A stretch of DNA of 64,000 nucleotides, taken from the NCBI RefSeq assembly GCF_014058705.1, contig NZ_CP059692.1, forward strand, positions 997,001 to 1,061,000. The letters run 5' to 3'. The position numbers were made by a program, and so were the translations under genes. The DNA is from Aureimonas mangrovi (GTDB lineage Bacteria; Pseudomonadota; Alphaproteobacteria; Rhizobiales; Rhizobiaceae). Each line of letters starts with the position of its first letter. The first letter of the stretch is position 1. The notes beneath the pieces were generated by a model. The model had not been told where the DNA came from. It saw only the letters and a program-made list of their open reading frames with translations, and made no database searches. Of this stretch, positions 10,086 through 26,019 are shown one piece after another.

Positions 10086-11960
10086 TCAGTGCGCGATCAT
10101 CTCGGCGACGATCTCGTCGGCGTCGAGCGATGACGGGTAGTAGGTCGGCCAGTTCGTCACCTCTTCGAGGAGGGCGGCGCGGTCGTCACCCCAATAAATA
10201 TGGTAGTGATCGGTGTTCTCCGGCGCGATGCGGTGGTCGCTGAACTGGATGAACTGCGGCGCTGCCTCGTCACCTTCGGTCTTTTGGAAGATGAAGCGCA
10301 CGCCGCGGTTGCCCTTGGCGTAGGTCAGGACCTCGTAACCGTCATAGGTGTAGTGACCCTCCGTCGGCTCGCCATCCTCGTAGAAGGTGACGACATCGCC
10401 CGCGATGGTGATGCGGTCGACCTCGGTGCGGTAGCCGGTTTCGTAATATTCGGCGTACTCCTCAGCGGTCATGTCGCCGCTCTCGGCCTTGTGCTCCCAC
10501 ACCGGATCGAGCGTTCCGTCTTGAAGATACGGGTAGACCGACTGCCAGTCGCCCTCGTAGTCCGACAGCGGGCGATCGGCGATCTGGCTGTCCTCGAAGT
10601 AGCCGGCGTAGATCTGCGGATCGCCATGGCTGTGCGCGTGTGCGCCGTCGCCATGACTATGCCCGGCGTGGTCGTCCCCCGTGGCTTCATGATCGTGGTC
10701 GTGACCGGCATGGTCGTGCTCTTCGCCCTCGTGGACGACACCGCTGCCGCCCACCACGGCGATGTTGTAGGGCATGCCCTCGACATCGATCGTGCCGGCT
10801 TCTTCGAGGGTCTCCTTGTCGATCCGACGCACGAGGCCCGCATTGGGATCGCTCATGACGATTTCGTCGCCGGCCATCGCGATGCGCGGCCGCGGATCGT
10901 TCCAGTGTCCGTCCATGGAGTAGGGCTCGGTCACACGCGCGCTGTCCGTCAGCGTCGCCTCGAGAACATCCAGCTTGTGGAGCGTGCCGTCCTCGGTCAG
11001 CACGTAGCCGAAGCGCGCGTTGGCCGGATCGAGTGCGAAGTCGATGCGCCGGAACGGCAGGTCGACGTGGCGCAGATGCGGCTCGTCCACCGGATCGACG
11101 ACCACAAGGCCGTCCGCGCCGTAGTTTCCGAGGAACACCTGCATGGCACGCGAACCGATCAGCGTCCCCGTCTTCTGTCCTGCGGGGAGGTCAGCGCCGT
11201 ATTCGAGCATCGCGGTCTCGATGCCGTCCGCTCCGGTGGTCACGGCCAGCACGCCCTCGTCGCAGCCGGCGATAAGGTACGCGCCGGAGAAGGCTTCACC
11301 GTGGATGCCTGTGCAGGTCGCCAGGTCGCCGAGGAGTTCACCTTCTTTCGTCGTTTCCTGAAGGCCGACTCGCGAGGGTGCGGCGTCGCCTTCCACCGGC
11401 GCGTCGGAAGCCACGCTCGTCACCCAACGGTTGCCGATCGGGGCGACGAAGCCGTGATGGGCGCGGGACTGGGAAAGCTGCGTCGAGGCGATTTCGCCTT
11501 CCGAGAGCGCGTGTCCATCGACGATCGCCGCGTAGCCCCCGCGATCGAAGTTGATGGCGACCTTGCCGTCGTGATCCACGACATGGAACGGTCGCGGGCC
11601 GGTGAGGCTACCCTCGATCGCGGTGGGATCTTCAATATCGATGTCGGAATGGTCGCCATGCGAATCGAGCGCGATGCCGCTGCGGAAGAAATGGACGGCA
11701 TCATCGTCGGACTGGACCGCGACGACGGCAGCGCCGTTGTCGACGCCGTAGAGCCTCGCCTGTCCGTTGGTTTCGAAGCTCCATCGATTGTCCGGTTCGC
11801 CGAGGTCGAAGGCGGTGACGCGCCCTTCGGCATGGTCGCCGACGAAGACGCGATAGAGCGTGACATCTCCGCCCTCATGGCTGCGCCCCTCATCCTGGGC
11901 ATGAGCGCTGACGGTGAGGACCAGTGCGACGGCTGTGGTGCAGCCAAGTGAACGCAGCAT
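10086..11960 (-). CDS. Periplasmic zinc chaperone: AztD-type propeller fused to ZinT
   Basis: The protein has 624 residues. A signal peptide (MLRSLGCTTAVALVLTVSAHAQ) precedes an AztD-like beta-propeller (about 30-400; VFVGDHAEGRVTAFDL, FHVVDHDGKVAINFDRGG, LATCTGIHGEAFSG). A histidine/aspartate-rich linker covers about residues 403-440, with repeated HDH and HSH. The last 190 residues form a ZinT domain (YAGYFEDSQIADRPLSDYEG, FSDHRIAP, HYHIYWG, NWPTYYP). AztD hands zinc to AztC, and ZinT is a separate periplasmic zinc-recruiting protein in enterics; here both are one chain. Start ATG 11960 is chosen at the signal peptide. Confidence 0.9.
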   Translation of the reverse strand: MLRSLGCTTAVALVLTVSAHAQDEGRSHEGGDVTLYRVFVGDHAEGRVTAFDLGEPDNRWSFETNGQARLYGVDNGAAVVAVQSDDDAVHFFRSGIALDSHGDHSDIDIEDPTAIEGSLTGPRPFHVVDHDGKVAINFDRGGYAAIVDGHALSEGEIASTQLSQSRAHHGFVAPIGNRWVTSVASDAPVEGDAAPSRVGLQETTKEGELLGDLATCTGIHGEAFSGAYLIAGCDEGVLAVTTGADGIETAMLEYGADLPAGQKTGTLIGSRAMQVFLGNYGADGLVVVDPVDEPHLRHVDLPFRRIDFALDPANARFGYVLTEDGTLHKLDVLEATLTDSARVTEPYSMDGHWNDPRPRIAMAGDEIVMSDPNAGLVRRIDKETLEEAGTIDVEGMPYNIAVVGGSGVVHEGEEHDHAGHDHDHEATGDDHAGHSHGDGAHAHSHGDPQIYAGYFEDSQIADRPLSDYEGDWQSVYPYLQDGTLDPVWEHKAESGDMTAEEYAEYYETGYRTEVDRITIAGDVVTFYEDGEPTEGHYTYDGYEVLTYAKGNRGVRFIFQKTEGDEAAPQFIQFSDHRIAPENTDHYHIYWGDDRAALLEEVTNWPTYYPSSLDADEIVAEMIAH

Positions 11961-12016
11961 TCCTGTATTCCTTGATCGGTGGTGGAGGGAGAGGGCGGGC
12001 GAGCCGCGCGGCCGCA

Positions 12017-12949
12017 TCAGTTCGCGGTCAGCGCGCCCGTCATGGTCTGGACGTTGTGGCGCATGAGCGAGACGTAGTCGGGCGCCGGACCGTTCGGATC
12101 GGAGAGAGCATCGGAGTAGAGGATGCCCTTGAGCTCGGTTCCAGCTTCGGCCGCGATCCGCTCCACAAGGCGCGAATCCGAAATGTTCTCGGCGAAGACG
12201 GCAGTGGTGCCAGCCTCGCGCATCTGCCGGATCAGCCCCGCGACATCGGCGGCCGAAGCTTCGGATTCGGTGGAGATGCCCTGCGGCGAGAGGAACTGCA
12301 GGCCATACTCGCCCTCGAAATATCCGAAGGCGTTGTGGCCCACGACGACCGCTCGACGGTTCTCGGGCAGCGCGTCGATGCTCTCGCGGATTTCGGTGTC
12401 GAGCGCGTCGAGTTCGGCAAGGTACGCGTCGGCGTTCGCGGTGTAGCTCTCACAGCCCTCGACATCGGCCCTGCAGAAGGCGTCGCGCGTGTTCTGAACG
12501 TAGATCTTCACGTTCGGCACGGACTGCCAAGCATGCGCGTTAAGCGCGCCCGCATGGAAGACCGCCTCGCCATCGACGAAGTGGTAATGCCCGCCGCCGG
12601 GCTCCTCCTTAGCCTCGATCCCGTCGCTCAAGGCCGCGATATCGGCTTCCGTGCCGCTGGCCGTCACCAGCCGATCGATGAAGCCTTCCAGACCGAGCCC
12701 ATTGGTGAGGACGACGTCTGCGCGCGCGATCGCGATCGCGTCGGCCGGTCGCGGCTCGTAGACATGCGCGTCGGCGTTCGGCCCGACGAGTGTCGAGACT
12801 TCGACACGCTCGCCGCCGACCTCCTTTGCGAAGTCGCCTAGGATGGAAAAGGTGGCGACCACTTGCAGCGGTTCTGCCGCCAGCGCGTGCGTGGATGCAT
12901 ACGTTATAACATATCCAGCGAGTGCAAGTTTGGCGAGTGAGCGTTTCAT
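12017..12949 (-). CDS. aztC: Zinc ABC transporter substrate-binding protein AztC
   Basis: The protein has 310 residues and a signal peptide (MKRSLAKLALAGYVITYAS, cleavage near ALAA). It is a cluster A-I metal-binding protein of the ZnuA/AztC type: VVATFSILGDFAKEVGG, DAHVYEPRP (His ligand), GALNAHAWQSV (His ligand), VVVGHNAFGYF (His ligand) and AENISDSRLVERIA (acidic ligand). The histidine-rich loop of ZnuA is reduced to GGGHYHF, as in AztC. It is the first gene of the operon and lies 56 bases from the AztD-ZinT gene. The ATG at 12949 is preferred to an in-frame TTG two codons earlier. The cognate ATPase and permease are not in the window. Confidence 0.9.
   Translation of the reverse strand: MKRSLAKLALAGYVITYASTHALAAEPLQVVATFSILGDFAKEVGGERVEVSTLVGPNADAHVYEPRPADAIAIARADVVLTNGLGLEGFIDRLVTASGTEADIAALSDGIEAKEEPGGGHYHFVDGEAVFHAGALNAHAWQSVPNVKIYVQNTRDAFCRADVEGCESYTANADAYLAELDALDTEIRESIDALPENRRAVVVGHNAFGYFEGEYGLQFLSPQGISTESEASAADVAGLIRQMREAGTTAVFAENISDSRLVERIAAEAGTELKGILYSDALSDPNGPAPDYVSLMRHNVQTMTGALTAN
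12899..12914. promoter_or_regulatory. Zur-box-like palindrome inside aztC signal-peptide codons
   Basis: ATACGTTATAACATAT is symmetrical except at one pair, with a perfect GTTATAAC core. It closely resembles alphaproteobacterial Zur operators (AT-rich palindromes around GTTATAAC). It falls within codons 12-17 of aztC, so it would act as an internal roadblock or an accessory site. A second, weaker copy lies upstream at 13318. The match is from memory of the consensus. Confidence 0.45.
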
Positions 12950-13779: not shown

Positions 13780-14913
13780 CTAGACTGCGCGCAGCGTCGG
13801 GCGGGAGATCGCGGCGCCCTCCCACAGCTCGTCGTTCAGTCGCTCGAGCCAGCCGGCGCCCGCCTCCGCTGCCGCCGGCGAATGGAGGGAAGCGAGAACC
13901 GATGGGTCGAGCCGTTCCGCTTCGGCCAGCAGAGATTGCCATCCTGCGAAGTCACCCGGCCAAGCGGAAGCGCTGACGGCTGCGTTCAGCGCGACGAGCG
14001 CATCCGCCTTGCGGTGCTGCTCGGCGAAGTATCGCCATTCGGGCATGACGACGAGCCGGCCGCCGAGCCGGGCAACCTCGTGAACGGTGTTGTCACCGGC
14101 CGACGCGACCACGATATCGGCCGCCGCGAGATGGTCGGTGACGTTGTCGACCCATCCGAGTTCGCGCAGGTTCGCGAAATCCGTTTCATGGCCCTCTCGC
14201 AAGGTGGGGCCGAGCACGAGCCAGAGCGCATCGGGTACAGCGCGGGCGGCAACCGTCAGCGGCGCGTAGGGGGTGCCTGCTCCTCCGCCGCCCGTCAAAG
14301 TCACGACGATCCTGCGGTCGGGGTCGAGGCCGAGCTTGCGCCGGGCGGCAAGCTTTTCGGGCACCGGGTCCCGCGTCGTGCAGAGCCCCCCGGTGTAGAA
14401 AGTCCTGGCGCGGAGATAGTCGGGATAGTCGGCCTGCTCCAACCGTTCGTCGAAGGGGGCGAGCATCCCGACACTGGCCTCGTAGGAGCCGATATGGCCG
14501 ATGTCCGAGCGATCCCCATGCATGCGGATCTGCACCGCCGGAACGCTGGCCGCGCGAGACAGAAGCGTGATCTCGGCCGAGACGTCCACAACGAACAGGC
14601 CGGCCTGCCGGTCGTCCAGATGATCGAGGATGGTGCGCATGGTGCGACGCATCTCGGCCACGCCGAGCGGAACGCAGTGCATGACCTGCGGGGTCGGCTC
14701 CGCGAAAAGTCGCTCGGTGGGCACGGCCGCGCCGATCATGTCGGGCAGCGGAACGATCTCGATGTCGCGCGCGAAACCCTCGAAGAGCTGTGGCCCCGCA
14801 GTCAAAACGGACACGGGGCGGTCTGGCGCCATGCGCTCGATCAGCGCCATGGCGCGGTTGGCGTGCCCGCGGCCCTGATGGTGGACGAAGAAGGCGATCG
14901 GCTTTTTCATCAT
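13780..14913 (-). CDS. MurG-like glycosyltransferase (GT-B fold)
   Basis: The protein has 377 residues. The N-terminus IAFFVHHQGRGHANRAMALIERM is the glycine-rich acceptor-side motif of the MurG/GT28 and UGT type. The C-terminal half has VVTLTGGGGAGTPY near residue 205, LGWVDNVTDHLAAADIVVASAGDNTVHEVARLGGRLVVMPE near 250, and the nucleotide-sugar-binding region after it. There are no membrane spans. It is the last gene of the SPS-like/GT2/GT run, 15 bases after its neighbour, so it likely adds a sugar in the same pathway. Donor and acceptor are unknown. Confidence 0.8.
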   Translation of the reverse strand: MMKKPIAFFVHHQGRGHANRAMALIERMAPDRPVSVLTAGPQLFEGFARDIEIVPLPDMIGAAVPTERLFAEPTPQVMHCVPLGVAEMRRTMRTILDHLDDRQAGLFVVDVSAEITLLSRAASVPAVQIRMHGDRSDIGHIGSYEASVGMLAPFDERLEQADYPDYLRARTFYTGGLCTTRDPVPEKLAARRKLGLDPDRRIVVTLTGGGGAGTPYAPLTVAARAVPDALWLVLGPTLREGHETDFANLRELGWVDNVTDHLAAADIVVASAGDNTVHEVARLGGRLVVMPEWRYFAEQHRKADALVALNAAVSASAWPGDFAGWQSLLAEAERLDPSVLASLHSPAAAEAGAGWLERLNDELWEGAAISRPTLRAV

Positions 14914-14928
14914 GTCGTTCCGACGCTG

Positions 14929-15792
14929 TCAGGAGAAGAGGACATCGCTCGTACGGGCTGAGGCGAGGATTTCTGCGTGTGTCGGTCGCCGTCGGACCTC
15001 GATCTCCGGTGAATCCTCGCTCCAGCCGATCAGCCCGGCATCGCGGAACTGGCCAAGCCAGTAGTCCATGCACCAGCGCCCATGACGCTCATGGAAGAGC
15101 GCGGCGTTGCGTAGGATGTGATCGAACTGGTGAAGCGGCGGAACGTGGACGACGTGGTGCTGGTGGTAGGCGCGCGCGCCGCCCGTCCAGAAGGCGCCGA
15201 CGCCCGCCGCCTTCACGCGCGCGGCGAAGTCCGTCTCCTCGCCGCCGTAACCGAAGAAGGCCTCGTCCATTCCGCCGAGCGTGCGCCATCGTTCTGCGCG
15301 AAGGGCGAAGGAAAGGCCCCAGAGCTGCCCGGTATCCGGTTCGGGAGCGATCCCCTTGGCGGGCACCGGCGGTTTTGAAGGGTGGACGCGGCCGATCTTG
15401 TCGAGATGCCTGAAGTCCAGTGCGGCGTCGACGCCGCCTGCCGGCAGATAGAGAACCTCGCCGAGGAAGAGGGCGTCGGCCCGGTCGAGTGCATCGGCAT
15501 AGGACGCCACGAGCGTCGGCGAGGGGATGCAGTCGACGTCGAGGAAGATCAGACCATCTGCCTGCGCGAGCTCCGCTGCCCGGTTGCGCGCCGCGGCCAG
15601 CGGCATGGGCTCGCCGGGAACGGTGACATGACGGACCGCGCACCCGGCGGCCGGGAGATCGGGTTCGGGCTCCTCCTGCATCCAGGCGATCACCAGTTCG
15701 GATGGTGCGATCGTCTGCTGGGCGAGGCCTTCGATGAGATTGCGCAGATGCGCGGCACGCCCGCGCACGAGGGTCAGGACGCTGGTTTGCAT
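14929..15792 (-). CDS. Family-2 glycosyltransferase
   Basis: The protein has 287 residues. SVLTLVRGRAAHLRNLIEGLAQQ opens the GT-A nucleotide-sugar fold. The metal-binding motif is FLDVDCIPS (D-x-D) near residue 104, with GMDEAFFGYGGEETDFAARVKAAG near 175, the C-terminal acidic block of GT2/GT27-like enzymes. It overlaps the end of the sucrose-phosphate-synthase-like gene by 19 bases, so the two are translated together. It is cytoplasmic with no membrane spans. Confidence 0.85.
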   Translation of the reverse strand: MQTSVLTLVRGRAAHLRNLIEGLAQQTIAPSELVIAWMQEEPEPDLPAAGCAVRHVTVPGEPMPLAAARNRAAELAQADGLIFLDVDCIPSPTLVASYADALDRADALFLGEVLYLPAGGVDAALDFRHLDKIGRVHPSKPPVPAKGIAPEPDTGQLWGLSFALRAERWRTLGGMDEAFFGYGGEETDFAARVKAAGVGAFWTGGARAYHQHHVVHVPPLHQFDHILRNAALFHERHGRWCMDYWLGQFRDAGLIGWSEDSPEIEVRRRPTHAEILASARTSDVLFS

Positions 15793-17840
15793 GCGTTTCG
15801 CGCCAGCGCCTGAAAGTGACGCACGCCTTCGATGATCCCCTCGGCATGAGTACGGCGCGATACGTAGGAGTGCTTCAGATCGGGCAGGTTCGGCAGCCCG
15901 TCGGAATGGTTAGCGACGATGATCGCCTGCGGGATCGTGCGCAACATCTCGATGTCGTTGCCGCTGTCGCCCGCCACGTAAACGGCGCTCTCGGCAAGGC
16001 CGTAATGCCGCCTGACGTGATCGACCGCAGTGCCCTTCGAGGCGCGCAGAGGCAGGATGTCGAGGTAGCGGCCATGGCTGTGGATCACCGATGCCCGCAC
16101 GCCGGCGCGCTCCAGCCGCTCGCGCACCAGGCGCACGGTGTCCGGCCTACCGTCGGAGAAGTAGGAGAGCTTGAATGCGCGTTGTTCTAGCGGAGCCTGG
16201 GGGCGGATGCAGGACAGTCCTTCGAGCGCGTCTTGCGCCCTGTCGCGCTCCCACGCGCGCGCAACGATGGCGCGCCAGCGATCGTCCGCCGTATAGGTCA
16301 CGCCGCTGCGGTCGAGATGATAGACCTCAGATCCGACAGACGTGATCATGACCTGTGGCCGAGGCGCGTTCTCCTGCTCGAGGATCGCCATCGCGCTATG
16401 AAAGGACCGGCCGGTCGCGACGCCGAAGGCAAGGTCGTCCTGCTTGCGGCGCCAATCTCCGAAGATGCGGATGCCTTCGAGGCAGCCGACGAGTGTGTTG
16501 TCGATGTCGCTGATGAGAAGTCGGCGCGGTGTGGCCACGCTTCGTGCCGGTGATAGCACGTCACGAACGAGTTCGTCGTAGCGCTCGGCGTGCCGACGCC
16601 AGTCATAGGCGGCGGCGACCCGCGCTCCGCTCTTCGACAAACGCTTGCGCAGATGCGCATCCGACAGGATGCGCAGGATCGCCTCCGTGATCGCGCTGTG
16701 ATCGTGCGGATCGACCAGGAGTCCGTTTCCGCATGTCTCGACAATGTCGTTCGGGCCACCGCTGTCCGTCGCAACGATCGGCAGGCCGGCAGCCGATGCT
16801 TCCAGCAGCGTCAGTCCGAACGGCTCGTTGAGAGCGGGGTTGACGAAGATGCCGCCGCGTTCGCGTGCGTAGGCGTAATAGGCCGGGACATCCTGTGGAT
16901 CGTGATGCTTGGGGTAGGCGACGGTCCCGTAGAGATCGTATCGATCGATCAGAAGGAGAAGCTCGCGCATGGTCTCGGCCATATCGCCGTCCAGATCGGC
17001 GATATCGGCGCGGTTGCCCGCGACGATCACGAGATTGGCGCGCTTGCGAAGCGCGGGGTTTTCACCGAACGCCTTGACCAGAGCCGCAAGGTTCTTGCGC
17101 GGAACAGGGCGCGCGATCGCGAGAACCACAGGTTTGTCCGGAACCAGAAGGAAACGGGCGAGCTCGGCGTCGACCGAGGGACTGGGTTCTGCGTTCGCAT
17201 AGGCTTCGAGATCGCTGCCCGGGGGCAAGATCCGGATGCGACCGGCATCGTAACCGAGATATGAGGCATACTGCACTTCGGCCTCGTCCCTCGAGGAGGC
17301 GATCAGAAGACTCGCTTCGCGCAACGCGGTCTCTTCGGCCTCGATCCGTTCCGCCATTCCATGGCATTCACGCCCCGAAGCGCGAAGCGCCTCCTCCTTC
17401 ACGCGGCCCAGCGAGTGGGCGGTGAAGAAGAAAGGGATGCCAAGCCGTTCCTTGACGATCGCCGCGACACGCGCTGCGTCCGCATAGTGGGCGTGGATCA
17501 GATCGGGTCGCCCCTCGGCCTCGATGAAGGCCATGAGGTTTTCGGCAAAGCTCTCCACCTCCCGGTGCATCGCTTCCTTCGGCAGGTAGTGCGGGTCGGC
17601 AGAAGCGATGCGCACGATCTCGACACCGGGCATGACGGTCTCGCGAGGTGTCTCGTAGGTTTTGCCGAATCCGTCGAAACAGCGGGTCGCGATGACGGCC
17701 CGCGACATCGCATCGCGTCCGGCAATGGCGCGTGTCAGATCGAGAAGGTATCGGATATGTCCGCCGGTGTCGGCCGTAAGCCCGTACTCGACATCAACGC
17801 CCTTCAGGCACCCTTGCAGTGCGATATGCAGAACGAACAC
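15774..17840 (-). CDS. Two-domain sucrose-phosphate synthase/phosphatase-like protein
   Basis: The protein has 688 residues from a GTG start behind GAGGGG; the open frame upstream overlaps the divergent gene. Residues 1-430 are a GT4 synthase domain (GLTADTGGHIRYLLDL, AIARPVPRKN, and EPFGLTLLEASAAG as the E-x7-E donor motif). Residues 450-688 are a HAD-IIB phosphatase with ISDIDNTL, GVATGRS, KLSYF and AGDSGNDIEM. Such fusions make sucrose via sucrose-6-phosphate; mannosylfructose-phosphate synthase is a close relative, so the product could be either. Sucrose-type sugars serve as compatible solutes. It heads the minus-strand three-gene run. Confidence 0.85.
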   Translation of the reverse strand: MFVLHIALQGCLKGVDVEYGLTADTGGHIRYLLDLTRAIAGRDAMSRAVIATRCFDGFGKTYETPRETVMPGVEIVRIASADPHYLPKEAMHREVESFAENLMAFIEAEGRPDLIHAHYADAARVAAIVKERLGIPFFFTAHSLGRVKEEALRASGRECHGMAERIEAEETALREASLLIASSRDEAEVQYASYLGYDAGRIRILPPGSDLEAYANAEPSPSVDAELARFLLVPDKPVVLAIARPVPRKNLAALVKAFGENPALRKRANLVIVAGNRADIADLDGDMAETMRELLLLIDRYDLYGTVAYPKHHDPQDVPAYYAYARERGGIFVNPALNEPFGLTLLEASAAGLPIVATDSGGPNDIVETCGNGLLVDPHDHSAITEAILRILSDAHLRKRLSKSGARVAAAYDWRRHAERYDELVRDVLSPARSVATPRRLLISDIDNTLVGCLEGIRIFGDWRRKQDDLAFGVATGRSFHSAMAILEQENAPRPQVMITSVGSEVYHLDRSGVTYTADDRWRAIVARAWERDRAQDALEGLSCIRPQAPLEQRAFKLSYFSDGRPDTVRLVRERLERAGVRASVIHSHGRYLDILPLRASKGTAVDHVRRHYGLAESAVYVAGDSGNDIEMLRTIPQAIIVANHSDGLPNLPDLKHSYVSRRTHAEGIIEGVRHFQALARNACKPAS

Positions 17841-17877
17841 GCAAGACCCCTCACGCTTTACTCGGACAGGAGTGCGG

Positions 17878-18945
17878 ATGCCGCTCTCGCACACACACAG
17901 CGCTCCGTTGCGGGTCGCCCAGATCGCGCCAAGCATCTTCCCCGTCCCGCCGACCGATCATGGCGGCACGGAGCGTGTGGTTCATGACCTGTGCACCGCC
18001 TTGCTGCGTGCAGGGGTTGATGTAACGCTGTTCGCCCCCTCGGACAGTGCGACAAATGTGTTTCGGATCGGCGCGCTGCCGAGCCTCGCGGCCCTAGAGA
18101 AGGAGCACGGCACGGTTCCACCCGGAGTCCCAGGTGTTCTCGATGCCGTTCGCATGGAGGAACTTCGGATCCGGCTGGCCGACTTCGACATCGTCCACTC
18201 GCACGGCGAGTTCTTCCATGCCGCGCTTCTCGGCGAAGGACGGCGTCGTTCGCTGACGACCATCCACTGGCGGGTCGACCAACTCGATCGCCGTCTCTTC
18301 TTCGAGGCGTTTCCCGACCTCCCCGTCGCCGCGATCTCGCAGGCGCAGGCTGCGATGCTCCCGGAGGCGAACAGGGCCGGAGTGGTGCATCACGGCATCG
18401 ACGCGCAGCGATACCGACTGTCGGAGGAGCCTGGCGCATACCTTGCCTTCATCGGACGGATGACCGACCAGAAGCGCCCGGATGCCGCCATCCGCGTCGC
18501 GCGTGCCGCGGGTCTGCCCATTCGCCTCGCGGGCACGGTCGACGTCGGCAATCCCGGTTACTTCGACGAGCGGGTGCGCCCGCTTCTCGGGCCCGATGCG
18601 AGCTATCTCGGGCCGCTCGGCGACGCCGCCAAGCAGACGCTGCTCGGCGGAGCGCGCGCGCTCCTGTTCCCGATCGACTGGCCGGAGCCCTTCGGTCTGG
18701 TGATGATTGAAGCGATGGCCTGTGGTACCCCGGTGATCGCCTGGCGGCGCGGATCGGTCCCAGAGGTCGTGGAGGAGGGCGTCACGGGATTCATCGTGGA
18801 GACCGAGGCCGAGGCGGTGGATGCGATCGCGCGCCTTCATACGCTCGATCGGCCCACGATCCGGCAGCGCTTCGAGCAGCGGTTCACCGCAGACCGGATG
18901 GCCGCCGGCTACATCGCGATATACCGAAGGCTGCTGGAGGCGTGA
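17878..18945 (+). CDS. Family-4 glycosyltransferase
   Basis: The protein has 355 residues from ATG 17878 behind AGGAG; the frame extends upstream only over the divergent gene. The GT-B fold shows PPTDHGGTERVVHDLCTALL near residue 24, DIVHSHGEFFHAAL near 105, YLAFIGRMTDQKRPDAAIR near 185, and the donor-binding EPFGLVMIEAMACGTPVIA near 265. It has no membrane spans. Only 37 bases separate its start from that of the SPS-like gene, so both promoters must overlap or lie within the genes. Similar GT4 enzymes are often annotated for mannosyl or glucosyl transfer; specificity is not readable. Confidence 0.88.
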   Translation: MPLSHTHSAPLRVAQIAPSIFPVPPTDHGGTERVVHDLCTALLRAGVDVTLFAPSDSATNVFRIGALPSLAALEKEHGTVPPGVPGVLDAVRMEELRIRLADFDIVHSHGEFFHAALLGEGRRRSLTTIHWRVDQLDRRLFFEAFPDLPVAAISQAQAAMLPEANRAGVVHHGIDAQRYRLSEEPGAYLAFIGRMTDQKRPDAAIRVARAAGLPIRLAGTVDVGNPGYFDERVRPLLGPDASYLGPLGDAAKQTLLGGARALLFPIDWPEPFGLVMIEAMACGTPVIAWRRGSVPEVVEEGVTGFIVETEAEAVDAIARLHTLDRPTIRQRFEQRFTADRMAAGYIAIYRRLLEA

Positions 18946-20123
18946 TGCGCACCGCGCTTCTGGCCTGGGACTATCCGCCCGCACCAAGCGGGCTGTCGGT
19001 CGCCGCGCGAGAGATCGCTGAAAGCCTTGCGCAGGCTGGGTGCGACGTGACCGTCTTCACGCTGGACAGGCATGGCGAGGAGCGTGTCGGCGGCGTGCGG
19101 ATCGTCGGTTGCGACATCCCTGCCGGCACCGTGCTCGCTCGCCTTCGCCTCTATGGGGCCGTCGGCCATCTCGCCGCGCCGATCGCCTTCCGCCGTGCCG
19201 TGCTACGCGAGCATTCGCGCCTGCCCTTCGCCGTCGTGGAAGCGACGAACTGGTACGCGCCGGCCTCCCTTCTCGTCGGGGCGGGGCTGACCGTCGTGAC
19301 GCGGAACTCGACACCGGCAGCCTTCACCCGTGGCCGCGCGCAGACGATGCGCGACCGGCTGGATGGCTGGGCGGCCGACACGCTGGAGCGCCGTCAGGCG
19401 CGCGGCAGCGCGGCGCTGATCTCCAACACCGCGGACCATGCCGCGAAGATGGCCGCGCTCTACGAGCTGGCGGCGGACGTGCCGCATGCGGTGGCCGGGC
19501 TCTCGTTGGCGCCTGAGTTCGTGGCGCGCGCCCGCGACGCCAGCTATCCCCTCGCGGGGCCGGCGCAACTCCTGTTCGTCGGGCGCGCGGAGGCTCGTAA
19601 AGGCTTCGACGCGCTGCTGGACGCCATCGTGCTTCTGGCCGGCGAGTGCGAAGCCGGTGCGCTGCCCTCGTTCGATCTGCGCCTTCTCGGGGTGCCGCCC
19701 GAAGATCTGCCGCGCGACCTGCCGGGCGAAGCGCGCTCGCGCATCGTCGCTCTCGGTCGCCGTCCCGACGACGCCTTGCAGGCCGAGTACGAGGCTGCCC
19801 ACATCGTGGTCGCGCCATCGCGATACGAGAGCTTCGGTCTCGTCTACCAGGAGGCGCTCGCATACGGGCGGGCCACCGTCGCCAGCGCCGAGGATGCGAG
19901 CGCGCGCGCCTTCGTGGGCGAGAGCGGCGGCGGGGTGCTGGCCGCCAAGACCAGTGCTCAAGCCATCGCAGAGGTCCTGCGTCCGCTGATCCATTCTCAT
20001 GACGCGCGTCTTTGCGCGCGTAAGGGCGCTCTGCGCGCGGCGGGTCGCTTCACGCGCGAGAGCCTCGCCGAGATGACACTGGCGCTCTACCGAACCGCCA
20101 TCGCTCGCAGTCAGTCACGATAG
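18945..20123 (+). CDS. Family-4 glycosyltransferase, second copy
   Basis: The protein has 392 residues. Its ATG overlaps the TGA of the previous gene by one base, with GGAGG just upstream. Motifs are WDYPPAPSGLSVAAREIAESL near residue 8, LLFVGRAEARKGFDALLDAI near 210, and APSRYESFGLVYQEALAYG near 300 (E-x7-E donor motif). It differs strongly in sequence from the preceding GT4, so the two probably make different linkages in one product. Its 3' end overlaps the convergent GT2 gene by 13 bases. Confidence 0.87.
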   Translation: MRTALLAWDYPPAPSGLSVAAREIAESLAQAGCDVTVFTLDRHGEERVGGVRIVGCDIPAGTVLARLRLYGAVGHLAAPIAFRRAVLREHSRLPFAVVEATNWYAPASLLVGAGLTVVTRNSTPAAFTRGRAQTMRDRLDGWAADTLERRQARGSAALISNTADHAAKMAALYELAADVPHAVAGLSLAPEFVARARDASYPLAGPAQLLFVGRAEARKGFDALLDAIVLLAGECEAGALPSFDLRLLGVPPEDLPRDLPGEARSRIVALGRRPDDALQAEYEAAHIVVAPSRYESFGLVYQEALAYGRATVASAEDASARAFVGESGGGVLAAKTSAQAIAEVLRPLIHSHDARLCARKGALRAAGRFTRESLAEMTLALYRTAIARSQSR

Positions 20124-21091
20124 GGACGCAGGAGAGCCTCCACTTCCTCAAGCCGTCCGTTGCCCGGTGACAGCGTCTCGTAGCGCTGCGACCGGGAGGC
20201 GACATGGGCGCGGGACAGGTGATGGTCGATCGCTCCGTGAAGCGAGATCGTGCTCTGCTGCCAGCTTCGCTCCGGGCGCTCGTGGACCGGGCCCGCGAAG
20301 CGGACCTCGCGGCGGTTGAGACGGTATTGCACGTCCGGGAAAACGTCGGAGCGGCTTCCATCGACGAGATTGTTGCGCGGCAGGCCGATCGAGAGGAGGC
20401 CATCCTCCTCGCCCATCCGCGCAAGCGCGGGCAGAAGGCTGGCGGCCCCATCGGGCAGGGTCTCGTCCGCATCGAGCTGCATGACCCACGCGCTCCTTGC
20501 GAGACCTTGCAGCGCGTTGCGCTGCGCGGCGAAGTCGCCGGCGAGCGGGCGGTGGGCGATCCGCACGGCGCCGGGCGCGAAGCCTGCCACCGCAGTGGCA
20601 CAGGATGAACGCGACGCTCCGTCGGCGAGCACCACGACATCGCTGGCCCAGCCAGCGTGCGGCGGGAGCGCCCTGAGGACTGCGTCGATCTCGTCTTCGC
20701 GACAGATCAGGCCGAGCGTCACCGGGCGCTGCCCCACAAACGGGCGAGACGTTCCGCGGGCGGCAGCGGCGCCGTGCGGGCGAAGCATTTCGTGGCGTTC
20801 GTCCTTGTGCGGAACGTACCGCCTGGAAACGGCCGTCGCGGCGATGCGAGCCGTATAGGCGTCCATTCCGAACGGAGACCGGTCGAAGCACGCCCAGTCG
20901 CCGCCCTCGAGCAGTTTGCGCATAAGCGCACGCGCCTCGCGATCGAAGGCATCGCCCTCGATCACCAGTCCGCACGAGGCGCAGGCGAGCTCGAAATCAC
21001 GCGTCCGTCCGCTCGGATCGGCCAGCGTGCGATCCGTCGGCTCCAGCATCCGTGCCCGGCACAAAGGGCATCGCGCGGGCGAGTTGATCAT
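20111..21091 (-). CDS. GT2-like glycosyltransferase with N-terminal zinc ribbon
   Basis: The protein has 326 residues. Residues 8-45 hold two cysteine pairs, CPLC and CASC, which look like a treble-clef/zinc-ribbon. After residue 120 a GT-A domain follows: PVTLGLICREDEIDAVLRAL, FAAQRNALQGLARSAWVMQLDADETLPD (D-x-D) and a C-terminal half with VQYRLNRREVRFAGPVHERP. That last block is typical of GT2 enzymes of the lipooligosaccharide beta-glucosyltransferase (WaaE/KdtX) kind. The ATG overlaps the stop of the neighbouring gene (ATGA). A fused zinc ribbon on a GT2 is unusual to me. Confidence 0.75.
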   Translation of the reverse strand: MINSPARCPLCRARMLEPTDRTLADPSGRTRDFELACASCGLVIEGDAFDREARALMRKLLEGGDWACFDRSPFGMDAYTARIAATAVSRRYVPHKDERHEMLRPHGAAAARGTSRPFVGQRPVTLGLICREDEIDAVLRALPPHAGWASDVVVLADGASRSSCATAVAGFAPGAVRIAHRPLAGDFAAQRNALQGLARSAWVMQLDADETLPDGAASLLPALARMGEEDGLLSIGLPRNNLVDGSRSDVFPDVQYRLNRREVRFAGPVHERPERSWQQSTISLHGAIDHHLSRAHVASRSQRYETLSPGNGRLEEVEALLRPYRD

Positions 21092-21744
21092 GCGGGCTCG
21101 AGTGCCTCGCGCCAGATGCGCCCGATTGGGCCGCTCGCGGTTTCCGGCTTGGCGTCGCCGATGAACACCACGACGGGGCCTGGAGCGGATTTGGATGGAT
21201 CGTAGAAGTCGACGAGACCGGGGTGCAGGCGCTGCAGGAAGGGCGGGACCCTGTCTTCACGACGCAGCAGATGGTCCACCACCACCTGATCGCCGTGCAC
21301 GGCATTGGGCACGCGGCCGCACGAGCCGGGCTTCATCCAGCGTTGCGGATCGGCGGCGAAGGTCTCGTATACGGAGGAAAGTTCGTCACCGTCCCAGCGT
21401 AAGAGCGCGGTCGACAGCCTGCCCTTCAGAAAATGGTCTTCCATCGCGGCCAAGCCCGGCTCAGCCAGCGCGTCCGCATTGCCGGTAAAGACGTTGTCGA
21501 GGTCGCACAGGACCGCTGTACCCGAGACGAGGCCAGGGCGGAACGCTTCCATCTTCGACCACCACCCCGGCCAGTCGTGACGGAGGGGAACGCGCTCGAT
21601 GCGCTCGCCCGTGACGGCGACGTCGCTCAGGCAAAGCACGCGCTCGAAGCGGCTCGAGTGCCGGAACAGCCCGTTGGCCAGCCGTTCCACCCAATGAGCG
21701 GCGTAGCGGCCGCCGCCTCTCAGGACCGTCACCAGCGTCGTCAT
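21088..21744 (-). CDS. Putative glycosyltransferase with GT8-like DxD motif
   Basis: The protein has 218 residues. It reads as a small GT-A-like protein: MTTLVTVLRGGGRYAAHWVERL at the N-terminus, AVLCDLDNVFTGNADAL near residue 77 (D-x-D), and AVHGDQVVVDHLL near 145, which recalls the late HGDQ-type motif of GT8/GT32-like enzymes. No membrane spans or signal peptide. It is first of a two-gene pair with the zinc-ribbon GT2. Family assignment is tentative because the protein is short. Confidence 0.6.
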   Translation of the reverse strand: MTTLVTVLRGGGRYAAHWVERLANGLFRHSSRFERVLCLSDVAVTGERIERVPLRHDWPGWWSKMEAFRPGLVSGTAVLCDLDNVFTGNADALAEPGLAAMEDHFLKGRLSTALLRWDGDELSSVYETFAADPQRWMKPGSCGRVPNAVHGDQVVVDHLLRREDRVPPFLQRLHPGLVDFYDPSKSAPGPVVVFIGDAKPETASGPIGRIWREALEPA

Positions 21745-21853
21745 GCATTCATCCTTGCCGGAGACGATCGGCCTGGCGCCGCTTGCGTCGATTTGCGCAT
21801 GGTAGTGCGGTGCAACGCGCAGGAAAGGACGGCGTTACGCCGACCCGACTTCG

Positions 21854-22480
21854 ATGAAGGACACTGCGTTGAACCATCAAAGCACGCCGGTCGAAACGGT
21901 CGCCATCGTCGGCAATGCGCCGGAGATCGGCGATCATTCCGCTGAAATCGATGCCTGCCAAAGGGTCGTGCGCTTCAACAACGCGGCCGGATTCGGCGAC
22001 AAGGCGGGCAAGCGTGTGACCGATCTCGCGCTCGTCAACCGTGGTGGACAGCCGCGGGAATGGGTGGAGCGGGATCGTCTGCGCGGACTTGTCGCGCTGT
22101 CGGACGCGCGTGAGGTGATCTTTCCGTTTCCCGCGCTCCTCGACGGACCGGCGGGCGTATGCTGGACGCGGGAGATGACATTGGCGCTCGCCCCGTTCAG
22201 CCTGCGTCCGCGCTTGCTGGACGAGGCGCTTCATCGGGACGCGAGGATGACGCTGCGCGATTTCGGCGCCATGGGGCGGCTCGACCCGAGCTCCGGCTTT
22301 CTCGTCACCTTCGATCTTCTGCGGCGGATGCCTCATGCACGCGTGCGCGCGTTCGGTTTCGGGTTCGCCGGCTGGCCTGGTCATCCGTGGGCGGCCGAAC
22401 GCCGGTGGTTCGAGCAGCAGCATCTGCGAGGTCGGCTCGATCTCGTGCCGCTCGCGACGTCGGCGGCTTCCAGCGATTGA
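21854..22480 (+). CDS. GT29 (sialyltransferase)-like protein
   Basis: The protein has 208 residues. The N-terminus ETVAIVGNAPEIGDHSAEID followed by VVRFNNAAGFGDKAGKRVTD is the large sialyl-motif pattern (VGNxP...ID..D.VVRFN) of GT29-like proteins, and DPSSGFLVTFDLL near residue 145 resembles the small motif (SSG). Bacterial homologues have often been mislabelled as urease operon accessory proteins; no urease genes are here. It starts a plus-strand trio, and its TGA overlaps the TTG start of the acyl-CoA dehydrogenase. A sialic-acid donor is not implied. No good ribosome site precedes ATG 21854, so the start is uncertain by a few codons. Confidence 0.65.
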   Translation: MKDTALNHQSTPVETVAIVGNAPEIGDHSAEIDACQRVVRFNNAAGFGDKAGKRVTDLALVNRGGQPREWVERDRLRGLVALSDAREVIFPFPALLDGPAGVCWTREMTLALAPFSLRPRLLDEALHRDARMTLRDFGAMGRLDPSSGFLVTFDLLRRMPHARVRAFGFGFAGWPGHPWAAERRWFEQQHLRGRLDLVPLATSAASSD

Positions 22481-23607
22481 AAGCGTGCGTTCGCGGTCCA
22501 GATGCTTGGTCGTATCCACTCGAGGAGGACAGACAGCTGCTTCAACGCACGATCACCGACGCACTGGCTCGTCTTGTCGCCTCGCGGGACGATACCGACC
22601 TTGCGCCCTTCGTGGACGCGCTTCGCGAGTTCGGACATCTGACGCGGTACGTGGTGGCGTCGGACGAGGGTGGCCTGCGATACGAAGCGCCTTCGGCCGA
22701 GGTGCTGCGTGATCTCTGCGAAATTGGCGGAGCGGACCTGGCCACGGCCCGCGTGTTCGAAGGTCATCTCAACGCTCTTCAACTCATCGCTCTCTACGGG
22801 ACGAACGATCAGCAGCGCCGCGTGCGCGAGGCAGTGTCGGATGGCGCGTTGCTGGGTGTCTGGGGAGCCGATGGCACGCCGCCGCTCACCTGCTCGGGAC
22901 ATGGCACGCTGGCGGGTGTCAAGCGCTACGCGTCGGGGGTCGGCGTCGTCTCGCTCGCCATCGTCGCGTTCACGGATGGCGAGGGCGCTCTCCATCTTCT
23001 GCTCATGCCGGTGGATGATCAGGAGCGCGTGAGCCTCATGGACTGGGATCATCGCGGCATGCGGCGCTCGCGTTCGGGCCAGTATGACTTCACCGGGCTG
23101 TCCGTCGGACGAGAGCACCGCCTGGGCGCCCCCGACGACTATCGCCGGGAGCCGTATTTCGTGGGCGGCATCTGGCGATGCTGCGCGGCCCAGCTCGGGG
23201 CGATCGAAGCGCTCGTCACCGCGCTCGTCGACGATCTGACCGCAAGCGGACGAGACGCGCATCCGCTCCAGATGGCGCGGATCGGCGAGGCGATCCTGAC
23301 GGCGCGCACGTGTCGATTGTGGGTGGAGGATGCGGCCTGCCGCGTCGAGGCGTCAGCGGCGGCGGGGGCGCCTCCGGCGGAGATCGAGCAGGCCGTTTCA
23401 CTTGCGGCCTATGCCCGGCTCGCGACCGAAAAAGCGGCGATGAGCGTGATCGAACTGTGTGAGCGGGCGCTCGGCCTCAGCATGTTCGCCGGTGCCCACC
23501 CGGCCGAAGCGCTGTCTCGCGATCTCGCCGTCTATATCCGGCAGGCCAATCCGGATGCGGTGCTCCTGCAGCATGGGCGGGTCCTGATGCGGGACTTCGC
23601 CCGGTGA
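22477..23607 (+). CDS. Acyl-CoA dehydrogenase-family protein
   Basis: The protein is about 376 residues from a TTG that overlaps the upstream TGA; earlier in-frame codons lie inside the previous gene. The layout is that of acyl-CoA dehydrogenases: helical N-domain (DALREFGHL, LNALQLIALYGTNDQQRRV), middle beta-domain (LLGVWGADG, LAGVKRYASGV), C-terminal helices (AALGAIEAL-type ACCAAQLGAIEALVTAL, ALGLSMFAGAHPAEALSRDLAVYIRQ). The last stretch corresponds to the usual region around GxxG and the FAD-binding helix. Its placement with a deacetylase, a methyltransferase and glycosyltransferases suggests acyl or amine oxidation in glycoconjugate biosynthesis rather than fatty-acid breakdown. Substrate unknown. 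Confidence 0.8.
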   Translation: MKACVRGPDAWSYPLEEDRQLLQRTITDALARLVASRDDTDLAPFVDALREFGHLTRYVVASDEGGLRYEAPSAEVLRDLCEIGGADLATARVFEGHLNALQLIALYGTNDQQRRVREAVSDGALLGVWGADGTPPLTCSGHGTLAGVKRYASGVGVVSLAIVAFTDGEGALHLLLMPVDDQERVSLMDWDHRGMRRSRSGQYDFTGLSVGREHRLGAPDDYRREPYFVGGIWRCCAAQLGAIEALVTALVDDLTASGRDAHPLQMARIGEAILTARTCRLWVEDAACRVEASAAAGAPPAEIEQAVSLAAYARLATEKAAMSVIELCERALGLSMFAGAHPAEALSRDLAVYIRQANPDAVLLQHGRVLMRDFAR

Positions 23608-24986
23608 CGGTGGGGCGGTGGCGAGAGCGAATGGCGTCGGCACCCGTCGCCGGCGCTGCCCGCCTTGTCGGCGAGGGCGGCCTGGTGATCCTCTCGCCGC
23701 ACCCGGACGACGAAACCATCGGATGCTCGACCTTCATTCGCGAGGCCGGGCGGTCGCGACGGCCGCTCGGCATCGTCGCCATGACGGACGGGGAGGGTTC
23801 GCATCGCTCCTCACGAACCTTCGATGCGAAGAGGCTGGGGGCCATCAGGGCACGCGAGCAGGAGGCCGCGGTGCGCGCACTGGGCTGCGACCATGCACGC
23901 TACCTGCGGCTTGCCCTGCCGGACGGCGCCTCCGGGCGTAGCGCAGGTTTTTCCACGGCCATCGACGAGGTGGCTGCATTCTGCGTCGAACTCGGTGCGA
24001 CGGCGTTGGCCGCTCCCCATCCCGATGATCCGCATCCGGACCATCATGCCGCCGCGGCCATGGCCTCGGCTCTTCGCGGCCGCATGCCTCGACTTCGCAT
24101 TATCTTCTACGAAGTCTGGATCCGCCGTCTGGACGCAGAGGATGGCTGGAGGGAGGACGCGCTGACGCCCTTCCGTCTTCGCACCGACCCGCGTGCCAAG
24201 AGGACGGCGATCGACGAGCATGCGAGCCAGCTCGGACGGGTCGTGGACGACGATCCCGACGGGTTCGCGCTACCGGCGTGGTTCATCGACGACGCCTGCG
24301 GACCATTCGAGCCCTGCTCCTGGCTGGCTCTTCCCGGCACCGGCCCAGGTGCCGAGCACTTCGCCGAGCTCTACGCGGAAGGCGGTGACCCCTGGCATGT
24401 GCGCTCGTCCGCCTACGAGCTCGAAAAGCGCGAGGCGGCTGTGAACCTGCTCGGGGAGCGGCGCTATCCTCGAATGCTGGAGGCTGGATGTGGGGAAGGG
24501 CATCTGACGGCGGCCCTCCTGCAGGCCGGTATCACAGCGCAGGCCATCGGCTTCGATCGTGAGCCGCTGATCGTCGATCGGGCGAACGCGATGGGGTGGG
24601 GTTCGAGCGCCCGTTTCGTCACCGGCACGATGCCAGATGCCATGCCGGCCGGCGGCTACGATCTCATCGTCTTCTCCGAAGTCCTCTACTTTCTCGGCGA
24701 GGCGGAACTCACGCAACTCGCCGCGCAGGTTCGGGACCTTCTCAATCCGGGCGGGTCGGTGCTCGCCGTGTGCTATCGTGGCCGGACGGATACGCCTCTC
24801 AGCGGTCGCGACGCGCTCGATTTCTTCGCGGCGGCCCTCGGCGACGAGTTCGTCACCGAAGCGGTTCACGAGACGCGCGACTATCGAATGGAGCTCCTCG
24901 AGCTTCGTCCAGCGCCAGACGCAGGGCCGGAATCAGTCGCCGAAGATCGGAAAGGCGCAACCTCGTCCGGCGGAGACGCGGGCTGA
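23604..24986 (+). CDS. Bifunctional PIG-L-type deacetylase / class I SAM methyltransferase
   Basis: The protein has 460 residues; its GTG overlaps the preceding stop (GTGA). Residues 1-245 are a PIG-L/LmbE zinc N-deacetylase domain: ILSPHPDDETIGC (zinc ligands H, D, D) and APHPDDPHPDHHAAA. Residues 255-440 are a Rossmann methyltransferase: MLEAGCGEGHLTAALL (motif I), GYDLIVFSEVLYFLGEAEL and LLNPGGSVLAV. The second domain is of the NodS-like type. The protein would remove an N-acyl group from an amino sugar and then methylate the product, often the freed amine. The last 134 bases overlap the convergent GT2 gene. Confidence 0.88.
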   Translation: MTVGRWRERMASAPVAGAARLVGEGGLVILSPHPDDETIGCSTFIREAGRSRRPLGIVAMTDGEGSHRSSRTFDAKRLGAIRAREQEAAVRALGCDHARYLRLALPDGASGRSAGFSTAIDEVAAFCVELGATALAAPHPDDPHPDHHAAAAMASALRGRMPRLRIIFYEVWIRRLDAEDGWREDALTPFRLRTDPRAKRTAIDEHASQLGRVVDDDPDGFALPAWFIDDACGPFEPCSWLALPGTGPGAEHFAELYAEGGDPWHVRSSAYELEKREAAVNLLGERRYPRMLEAGCGEGHLTAALLQAGITAQAIGFDREPLIVDRANAMGWGSSARFVTGTMPDAMPAGGYDLIVFSEVLYFLGEAELTQLAAQVRDLLNPGGSVLAVCYRGRTDTPLSGRDALDFFAAALGDEFVTEAVHETRDYRMELLELRPAPDAGPESVAEDRKGATSSGGDAG

Positions 24987-26019
24987 GATCCTCGGCCTCC
25001 TGCCATGCGAGCGGGCCGCCCTGCGCAGCAAGCCGCGCGGCATCCGCTGGGTCGAGGGTGAGCGCGCCGAGCGCCTCCGAGCGCCCCTGCCGTGACGGAG
25101 CGCCGAGATATGCGGCCCTCGCCCGTAAGCGCAGGACCAGGGCGTCGGCCGGCTCGAGAAGTTCGTCGACGACAGGATCCTCTTCCAGCCGATCGCGCGC
25201 GAGCTCGTCGGCCAGCCCACCGCGTGCGCGTCCGTCGAGGCGGCAGGATGTGTGCACTATGGGCTCGTCCGCATAGCGGATGCGCATGCCGAGAGCTTCG
25301 CAGCGCCGTCGCAGCGCCCGATCCTCGCCGGAGGGTGGCGTCGGCAACGGTCCGGCTTTCCTGTAGGCTCCCGCCGCGATCGCAAAATTTGCGCCGCCGA
25401 TATTGCCGTGGTTCGGCCAGGGATTGTCGGGGTCCGGGCAGAGGAGCGCCGCGATCTCGCGCGAGGTTTGGCGATATTCCCGGACAAGCGCCTGGCTCGC
25501 CGGATCGGCCGCAGGCAGCAGAGAGGCCTCCTCCGGAAGAAAGCCGATCCGTCCGCAGACGAGGTCGAAGCCGCGAGCAAGGTCTGCCGCGTAGGCGGCG
25601 CGCAGCCCGGGGAGCACGACCGTATCGGCGTCCGTCGAAAAGAGAGAGGCGCATGGCGCCGCGTCCGCGGCGACATCGAACGCCAGGCGACGCGCGAGAG
25701 GCGCTGTGCCGAGCCCCTCGCGGAAATGACAGTCCACGAGAAGCCAGGGCCGCTGCCACCCGCTCATGACGCGAAGGGCAATCTGCGTGGTCGCATCCCG
25801 GCAGCCATTGGCGACAAGCACCACGCCATCGCTGCGATCGAGGTCGGCATCGAGCGCGGAAAGGCTGCGGGCGATGTGAGCTTCTTCGTTCCGGGCGGGT
25901 ATGCACGCGACGAAGGAGCAGCCGATGAGTTCGCCCGCGTCTCCGAAAGCCTTCAGATCTGGATGAAGTGACGCTTGCAGAGGCTGCCCTTCGCAGGGAT
26001 CGGAAACTTTCACCGGCAA
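24853..26019 (-). CDS. Family-2 glycosyltransferase at the cluster edge
   Basis: The protein has 388 residues. The GT-A domain starts at FVACIPARNEEAHIARSLSAL near residue 35, with VVLVANGCRDATTQIA, SLFSTDADTVVLPGLRA (D-x-D near 130), NIGGANFAIAAGAYRKAG near 215 and GEDRALRRRCEALG. The C-terminal 130 residues are helical and charged, with no clear membrane span. It converges on the deacetylase/methyltransferase gene with an overlap of 134 bases, which is long. Neighbours with a GT2 of this kind beside a PIG-L/methyltransferase suggest they work on the same sugar. Confidence 0.85.
   Translation of the reverse strand: MPVKVSDPCEGQPLQASLHPDLKAFGDAGELIGCSFVACIPARNEEAHIARSLSALDADLDRSDGVVLVANGCRDATTQIALRVMSGWQRPWLLVDCHFREGLGTAPLARRLAFDVAADAAPCASLFSTDADTVVLPGLRAAYAADLARGFDLVCGRIGFLPEEASLLPAADPASQALVREYRQTSREIAALLCPDPDNPWPNHGNIGGANFAIAAGAYRKAGPLPTPPSGEDRALRRRCEALGMRIRYADEPIVHTSCRLDGRARGGLADELARDRLEEDPVVDELLEPADALVLRLRARAAYLGAPSRQGRSEALGALTLDPADAARLAAQGGPLAWQEAEDLSPRLRRTRLRLSDLRRLIPALRLALDEARGAPFDSRASREPLR

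Follow-up and report, generated by a model that had tools for sequence, protein, structure and literature searches.

Two conserved gene modules of Alphaproteobacteria that probably build and decorate an oligosaccharide

Mannosylfructose-phosphate synthase and its phosphatase (MfpsA/MfppA) of Agrobacterium are, as we assume, kin of sucrose-phosphate synthase (SPS) and sucrose-phosphate phosphatase (SPP). Nod factors are modified by deacetylation (NodB) and then by N-methylation (NodS), and a similar logic is considered below. The acyl-CoA dehydrogenase (ACAD) fold is shared by the group D flavin monooxygenases, including DszC, MsuC and the amino-sugar N-oxygenases KijD3 and DnmZ. For the SPS of Thermosynechococcus (TeSPS), a contact of Gln51 with fructose-6-phosphate has been described (PMC7264703). 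Here we compare these systems with eleven genes at positions 13780 to 26019 of a 64,000-nucleotide stretch of Aureimonas mangrovi DNA, called the window (C1:997001-1061000 of a 3.49-Mb single-contig genome). The eleven genes are two conserved modules and not one block, each of which is found apart from the other or jointly with it, and their sequences indicate that they probably build and decorate a possibly stress-related oligosaccharide.

The eleven open reading frames were confirmed, and a gene caller with a codon model selected the identical eleven; most of the family assignments are supported by profiles or folds. A preliminary description of the window had presented them as a single block with no polymerase, flippase or exporter. 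The genes are thus real, and scans with Pfam and NCBIfam also found no initiating transferase, flippase, polymerase or ABC exporter among them, in contrast to a locus for exo- or capsular polysaccharide. The single block dissolved when the eleven proteins were compared with other genomes. Eighty loci (L001-L080) were fetched via the protein that fuses a PIG-L deacetylase to a methyltransferase (PIG-L/MT), representing the best 80 of its 216 matches, and 20-kb regions of other genomes and plasmid records were added. Module A comprises the ACAD-fold flavoprotein, the PIG-L deacetylase, the methyltransferase and a GT2 glycosyltransferase (GT2c). Module B comprises a GT28 glycosyltransferase, a GT2 enzyme with a galactosyltransferase-type domain (GT2gal), the SPS-like protein, two GT4 enzymes (GT4a and GT4b) and a further GT2 protein (GT2b), with GT29 and GT8-like proteins as variable members. 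Because the same gene sets recur in other genomes, the arrangement is beyond chance. Both modules occur in several orders of Alphaproteobacteria, often on plasmids, and module A was also found in one Deinococcus.

Module A was characterized in the 43 loci with a called ACAD gene, window included. A methyltransferase gene lies beside ACAD in 42 of them, and a GT2c-like gene is at most four genes away in 38. PIG-L lies beside ACAD in 41, and in 9 of the 43 it forms one protein with the methyltransferase. Much of this is given by construction because L001-L048 and L059 entered the count via the PIG-L/MT protein. Loci found with the ACAD protein itself give a less biased picture: plasmid regions had adjoining PIG-L and methyltransferase genes in 7 of 8 cases (8 opened of 67 matching records), while the plasmid of Methylobacterium sp. 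FF17 has neither beside ACAD. In addition, nine genomes have unlinked modules, and in every one of them ACAD adjoins a homologue of PIG-L or of the methyltransferase (L100 for G283).

In L107, L111, L113, L115, L117, L119, L122 and L123 the 20-kb region that was fetched holds module B and no gene of module A, and in L107 this region contained no GT28 gene. Of 30 plasmid records with SPS matches 13 were opened, with Acidithiobacillus and Nostoc serving as outside comparisons. A shorter core, SPS-GT28-GT2gal-GT4, is present in plasmids of Paracoccus sediminicola, Sulfitobacter, Roseomonas, Sphingomonas sp. R1, Sphingomonas parapaucimobilis and Paracoccus marcusii. A Croceicoccus plasmid has SPS, GT28 and GT2gal in order and a GT4 gene on the opposite strand past a sulfotransferase gene, and Paracoccus yeei has SPS and one glycosyltransferase. 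Among the 13 closest loci, modules A and B adjoin each other in nine (L003, L005, L006 and L008-L013); in L001, L002, L004 and L007 they are not joined within the fetched flank. Five different arrangements of A and B were found, counting the window, so that their adjacency is not merely one inherited order. Conserved order in other genomes had been proposed as a check of the block: the gene sets do recur, and their order varies. The synteny of L001-L013, L105 and L121 was determined by tblastn. A greedy gene caller overlooked some cluster genes, or called them wrongly, in L002, L005, L007, L010, L012, L027, L097, L104, L105 and L121, which are therefore partly or wholly outside the counts based on gene calls. 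L099-L103 and L081 (the same record as L013) were excluded from the counts of promoter leaders, neighbouring genes and ACAD neighbourhoods.

Several loci showed individual features. A second pair of GT2gal-like and GT4-like genes comes after module B in L096 and L105, as though two versions had met. Three plasmids (L089, L090 and L093) carry related sulfotransferase genes close to module B, a hint that sulfated forms of the product may exist. In the Jiella pelagia plasmid (L013/L081), which is typed as conjugative, GT28, SPS, GT4b and PIG-L/MT each match in two pieces, as if frameshifted. In Deinococcus sp. AJ005 (L085:10678-13041) ACAD is joined at its N-terminus to about 400 further residues (410 aa) that had no match in Pfam or NCBIfam, and the region also holds a UDP-galactopyranose mutase gene.

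The two modules co-occur beyond their linkage. In a sample of 151 genomes of the family, ACAD (E<=1e-25) was found in 23, the SPS-like gene (E<=1e-60) in 14, and both in 11 (Fisher p 2.4e-8; the sampled genomes share ancestry, and this and the following p values overstate the significance). The modules are linked in five of the 11 genomes and unlinked in six. When the linked genomes were dropped, 6 of the 9 SPS genomes still carried ACAD (p 1.0e-4). In a sample of 385 genomes of the class, the SPS-like gene was found in 4 and ACAD in 6, counts that are lower bounds because 2 or 5 candidates were scored per genome; each of the four SPS genomes also has ACAD. When the window's genome is left out, ACAD is carried by 3 of 3 SPS genomes compared with 5 of 384 genomes overall (p 1.1e-6), and in all three the modules are unlinked. 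Since co-occurrence extends to unlinked modules, a shared pathway or a shared physiology is viable. The occurrence of the genes apart in related genomes had been named as evidence against one pathway. The modules do stand apart elsewhere, yet they co-occur far above chance when unlinked, and the preliminary description, right in its observation, was half right in reading a single pathway from it.

The SPS-like gene (15774..17936, minus strand; the gene caller favours a start at 17840, giving 688 aa) encodes a GT4 domain fused to an SPP-like phosphatase domain of the HAD family (TIGR02472 437 bits, S6PP 197 bits). In common with SPS/SPP, the GT4 domain has the donor-site and catalytic residues of solved SPS enzymes (His158, Glu331 and Arg249/253 in TeSPS numbering), and the fused HAD domain has intact DxDxT, Lys and GDxxND motifs. 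Many relatives have Lys for Arg253, and Lys also takes the place of Arg105, a feature shared with the H. orenii enzyme. In contrast to SPS/SPP, both TIGR equivalog cut-offs are missed (TIGR02472: 437.4 bits, cut-off 576), the GGQ motif has another residue in place of its Gln, and the gene is set among further glycosyltransferase genes. The replacement was found in 31 of 31 distinct module B records, with His in 30 and Ala in one (Paracoccus yeei). This count comprises 27 rows with His, equal to 26 distinct records (L013 and L081 are one record, and L127 was listed twice), together with L005, L012, L105 and L121 (His) and L097 (Ala); L124, with its N-terminus cut off, gave no residue. The Gln is kept in the SPS of Acidithiobacillus, which is encoded beside GH100 and PfkB genes, in the SPS of Nostoc and in the H. 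orenii structure. We infer that Gln51 of TeSPS is the Gln of this motif. The exchange for His suggests that the acceptor may differ from fructose-6-phosphate, and the acceptor is probably not, or not only, this sugar phosphate. The label SPS-like thus fits the donor side and the phosphatase motifs, but not the GGQ motif or the equivalog score.

The GT29 protein (21854..22480, plus strand, 208 aa) was assigned by profile and fold. The profile recognized sialylmotifs L and S, and the predicted model has the sialyltransferase fold; Pfam itself gave no match. An HxxxxE sequence is present, which we take to be a family motif. The protein thus has sialylmotifs and fold in common with the GT29 sialyltransferases, while it is bacterial and has only 208 residues. 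NeuB is absent from the window's genome and present in one of seven other carriers (G467); its absence from 7 of 8 checked carriers implies that they have no NeuB-type route to sialic acid. Sialic acid was considered as the donor and is unlikely given the absence of NeuB in the window's genome, whereas G467 does have the enzyme. KdsB is the one clear CMP-sugar synthetase of the window's genome, and the donor sugar of GT29 would most likely be 3-deoxy-D-manno-octulosonic acid (Kdo) from CMP-Kdo. Near C1:933095 of this genome (L128:1333-3075, plus strand), KdsB and prephenate dehydratase are encoded in one open frame of 580 aa, both above their equivalog cut-offs, an apparent KdsB-PheA fusion.

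The flavoprotein of module A (22477..23607, plus strand) was assigned by alignment, predicted model and fold. The model has the ACAD fold (mean predicted local distance difference test, pLDDT, 91), and the Pfam ACAD model scored 13.0 bits, below its cut-off of 22.9. The catalytic Glu is absent: residue 357 is Ala or Pro in 30 of 30 proteins, in a register anchored on the RD of an alignment with ACAD8, the residues past this anchor being what we take to be the ACAD8 sequence. The missing Glu rules out a simple acyl-CoA dehydrogenase, so that of the original label the fold stands and the activity does not. The best profile and fold matches were DszC-type proteins with ACADs close behind, and the fold did not separate monooxygenases from dehydrogenases.

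The PIG-L/MT open reading frame (23604..24986, plus strand) starts in overlap with the stop of the flavoprotein gene; the gene caller favours a start at 23631. The protein matches PF02585 (73.1 bits), Methyltransf_25 (44.9) and NodS (31.1), the latter being a domain of S-adenosylmethionine-dependent methyltransferases. HPDDE and HPDH motifs are present, in accordance with the zinc motif of PIG-L, and HPDDE was found in 35 of 41 PIG-L gene calls across the loci. The proposed resemblance to NodS is real but weak, with 31.1 bits in Pfam and 34.6 of the 300 bits required for the equivalog. In contrast to Nod factor modification, the deacetylase is PIG-L and not NodB. As described before, the eleven genes have no NodC- or NodA-type match in the Pfam and NCBIfam scans, and they likewise have no NodB-type match. 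The nearest named relatives of the fusion are from Aureimonas, Jiella, Fulvimarina, Aurantimonas and Pararhizobium mangrovi. GT2c (24853..26019, minus strand) scored 20.0 bits with PF00535 (cut-off 23.3) and 30.6 bits with EpsU (cut-off 700). The methyltransferase and GT2c genes converge and overlap at their 3' ends by 134 nt (24853-24986), and shorter overlaps are found in annotated records of Jiella (95 nt), Deinococcus (58 nt) and Komagataeibacter (35 nt).

EcfG is a general stress regulator, and its regulon offers a possible link of module B to stress. A pyruvyl transferase gene follows the core of module B in plasmids of Sphingomonas taxi, S. parapaucimobilis and Sphingomonas sp. R1. In S. 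melonis Fr1 the top 50 EcfG-dependent genes include the overlapping genes #3506 to #3509, labelled 'predicted glycosyl transferase', 'predicted glycosyltransferases', 'glycosyltransferase' and 'exopolysaccharide biosynthesis protein', and a reporter assay showed EcfG dependence of the glycosyltransferase gene #3505 (PMC6599016). The order and wording of that operon match SPS-GT28-GT2gal-GT4-pyruvyl transferase of S. parapaucimobilis and Sphingomonas sp. R1, and of S. taxi from GT28 onward, a match in annotation words and order and not in sequence. In contrast to #3505-#3509, the window block has no pyruvyl transferase gene. The EcfG promoter motif has 8 matches in the window compared with 5.8 expected, and 22 of 100 shuffles reached 8; as there is no excess, we do not claim EcfG regulation from the sequence. 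Near module A, catalase-type genes were found in 6 loci, DUF892/YciF-type genes in 5 and LigD-type genes in 3 (raw counts without a background rate, with labels taken from annotated members and by eye).

The reading that we favour, with somewhat less than even confidence, is that A and B are two modules of one carbohydrate pathway, or two pathways used jointly, that make a decorated short oligosaccharide. The SPS-like synthase/phosphatase of module B would make a non-reducing disaccharide, up to seven glycosyltransferases would extend it, and GT29 may cap it, likeliest with Kdo from CMP-Kdo. In module A, the GT2 enzyme would add an N-acetylhexosamine from which PIG-L would strip the acetyl group. 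The amine thus freed may be methylated and oxidized by the NodS-like domain and the flavoprotein. The lack of a lipid-carrier initiator, a polymerase and an exporter among the eleven suggests a short product, which would be a short oligosaccharide or glycoside kept inside the cell or moved by a general system, with a putative role in stress survival. A more specific version is a new class of zwitterionic cytoplasmic stress oligosaccharide with a non-sucrose, non-reducing disaccharide core from an SPS-like enzyme of altered acceptor site, a Kdo cap added by GT29 and an amino sugar subject to deacetylation, N-methylation and N-oxidation, with an ACAD-fold N-oxygenase as the oxidizing enzyme; it is quite improbable in all its details. 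If the favoured reading held, many plant-surface and marine bacteria would make a new stress-survival sugar, and the SPS, ACAD and GT29 families would gain members with new chemistry. No description of module A or B was found in the titles and abstract openings among the literature matches listed, a search that covered few subscription journals and no supplements; to this extent the pathway is undescribed, as had been proposed.

Several results weigh against the favoured reading. Of the genomes that have both modules, 6 of 11 in the family sample and 3 of 3 in the class sample have them unlinked, and 12 of the 23 ACAD genomes have no SPS match, so that module A must function there without B. 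In Aureimonas frigidaquae (L010) PIG-L/MT and GT2c lie beside module B without ACAD. The shared ancestry of the sampled genomes lessens the weight of the p values, and the fetching of L001-L080 via the PIG-L/MT protein lessens that of PIG-L beside ACAD in these loci. The tie to the S. melonis operon is one of annotation, and a strict EcfG motif preceded 2 of 37 leaders in module A, 1 of 77 in module B and 12 of 702 others; a looser motif gave 2 of 37, 4 of 77 and 18 of 702, without clear enrichment.

Some of these results would be expected if two unrelated pathways stood side by side, module B making a compatible-solute-like oligosaccharide and module A modifying another glycoside, with the co-occurrence arising from a tendency of plant-surface and marine bacteria to collect genes for stress survival and plasmid cassettes. 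Each module occurs alone in other genomes and plasmids, 12 of the 23 ACAD genomes have no SPS match, and protein matches to ACAD and SPS lie about 45 kb apart in Paracoccus sediminicola p1 and on two plasmids in Roseomonas haemaphysalidis. Both this explanation and its account of the co-occurrence are possible but rather doubtful, because the modules adjoin each other, in more than one order, in nine of the 13 closest loci, co-occur strongly even when unlinked, and in operons of the sphingomonads L017, L020 and L094 relatives of GT4, GT28-like and GT2gal-like genes surround ACAD.

The eleven genes include many glycosyltransferases of different families and no dedicated flippase, which would also fit a surface glycolipid or the outer core of lipopolysaccharide, with a short glycan on the lipid A core or another lipid and with GT29 adding Kdo; flipping by a general transporter would explain the missing exporter. 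KdsB as the genome's clear CMP-sugar synthetase and the pyruvyl transferase or sulfotransferase genes beside module B in some relatives are in agreement with this. We consider it unlikely, since an SPS/SPP-like fusion whose HAD motifs are intact argues for an acceptor that is a free sugar phosphate and since module B is accessory, with SPS and GT28 in 13 of 151 family genomes. Plain synthesis of sucrose as an osmolyte by the fusion, with the glycosyltransferases as bystanders, would account for the intact donor-side residues and SPP motifs. It has very little probability in our view, because both equivalog cut-offs are missed, the GGQ Gln is replaced in all 31 records but kept in the Acidithiobacillus SPS beside GH100, and the same glycosyltransferases follow SPS in distant orders.

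The remaining genes of the block belong to module B. The GT28/MurG-like protein (13780..14913, minus strand, 377 aa) matches the GT28 C-terminal domain PF04101 with 23.4 bits (cut-off 22), and a sequence search of the PDB gave no match; its gene is present in 13 of the 14 family-sample genomes with the SPS-like gene. GT2gal (14929..15792, minus strand, 287 aa; PF02709 36.4 bits), the gene of which overlaps the SPS-like gene by 19 nt, has beta-1,4-galactosyltransferase 7 as its closest solved structure (E 0.002). GT4a (17878..18945, plus strand; PF00534 69.7 bits) rests on a gene call with an uncertain start and is transcribed divergently from the SPS-like gene. GT4b (18942..20123, plus strand; PF13692 69.4 bits) is convergent with GT2b (20111..21091, minus strand), which has N-terminal CxxC pairs, scored 19.4 bits with PF00535 (cut-off 23.3) and adjoins GT4b in most module B loci that have GT4b. 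The GT8-like protein (21088..21744, minus strand) was labelled from its sequence by eye and has no Pfam match at E<=10; orthologues were found in module B of L005, L111, L115, L122 and L123.

Eight flanking genes were scanned. DeoR, CobW, ZinT and ZnuA are encoded to the left of the block, and a PAS-GGDEF-EAL protein, cydBA and an ABC transporter to the right; the transporter gene, at 31570, is outside the block, beyond cydAB. The flanking genes seem unrelated to the block, and the left side appears to serve zinc uptake. The window had no Rfam match and no tRNA gene. ZinT forms the C-terminal 176 residues of a 643-aa protein (10086-12017, minus strand), the remainder of which has no Pfam match (E<=1e-5), and its gene adjoins those of ZnuA and CobW.

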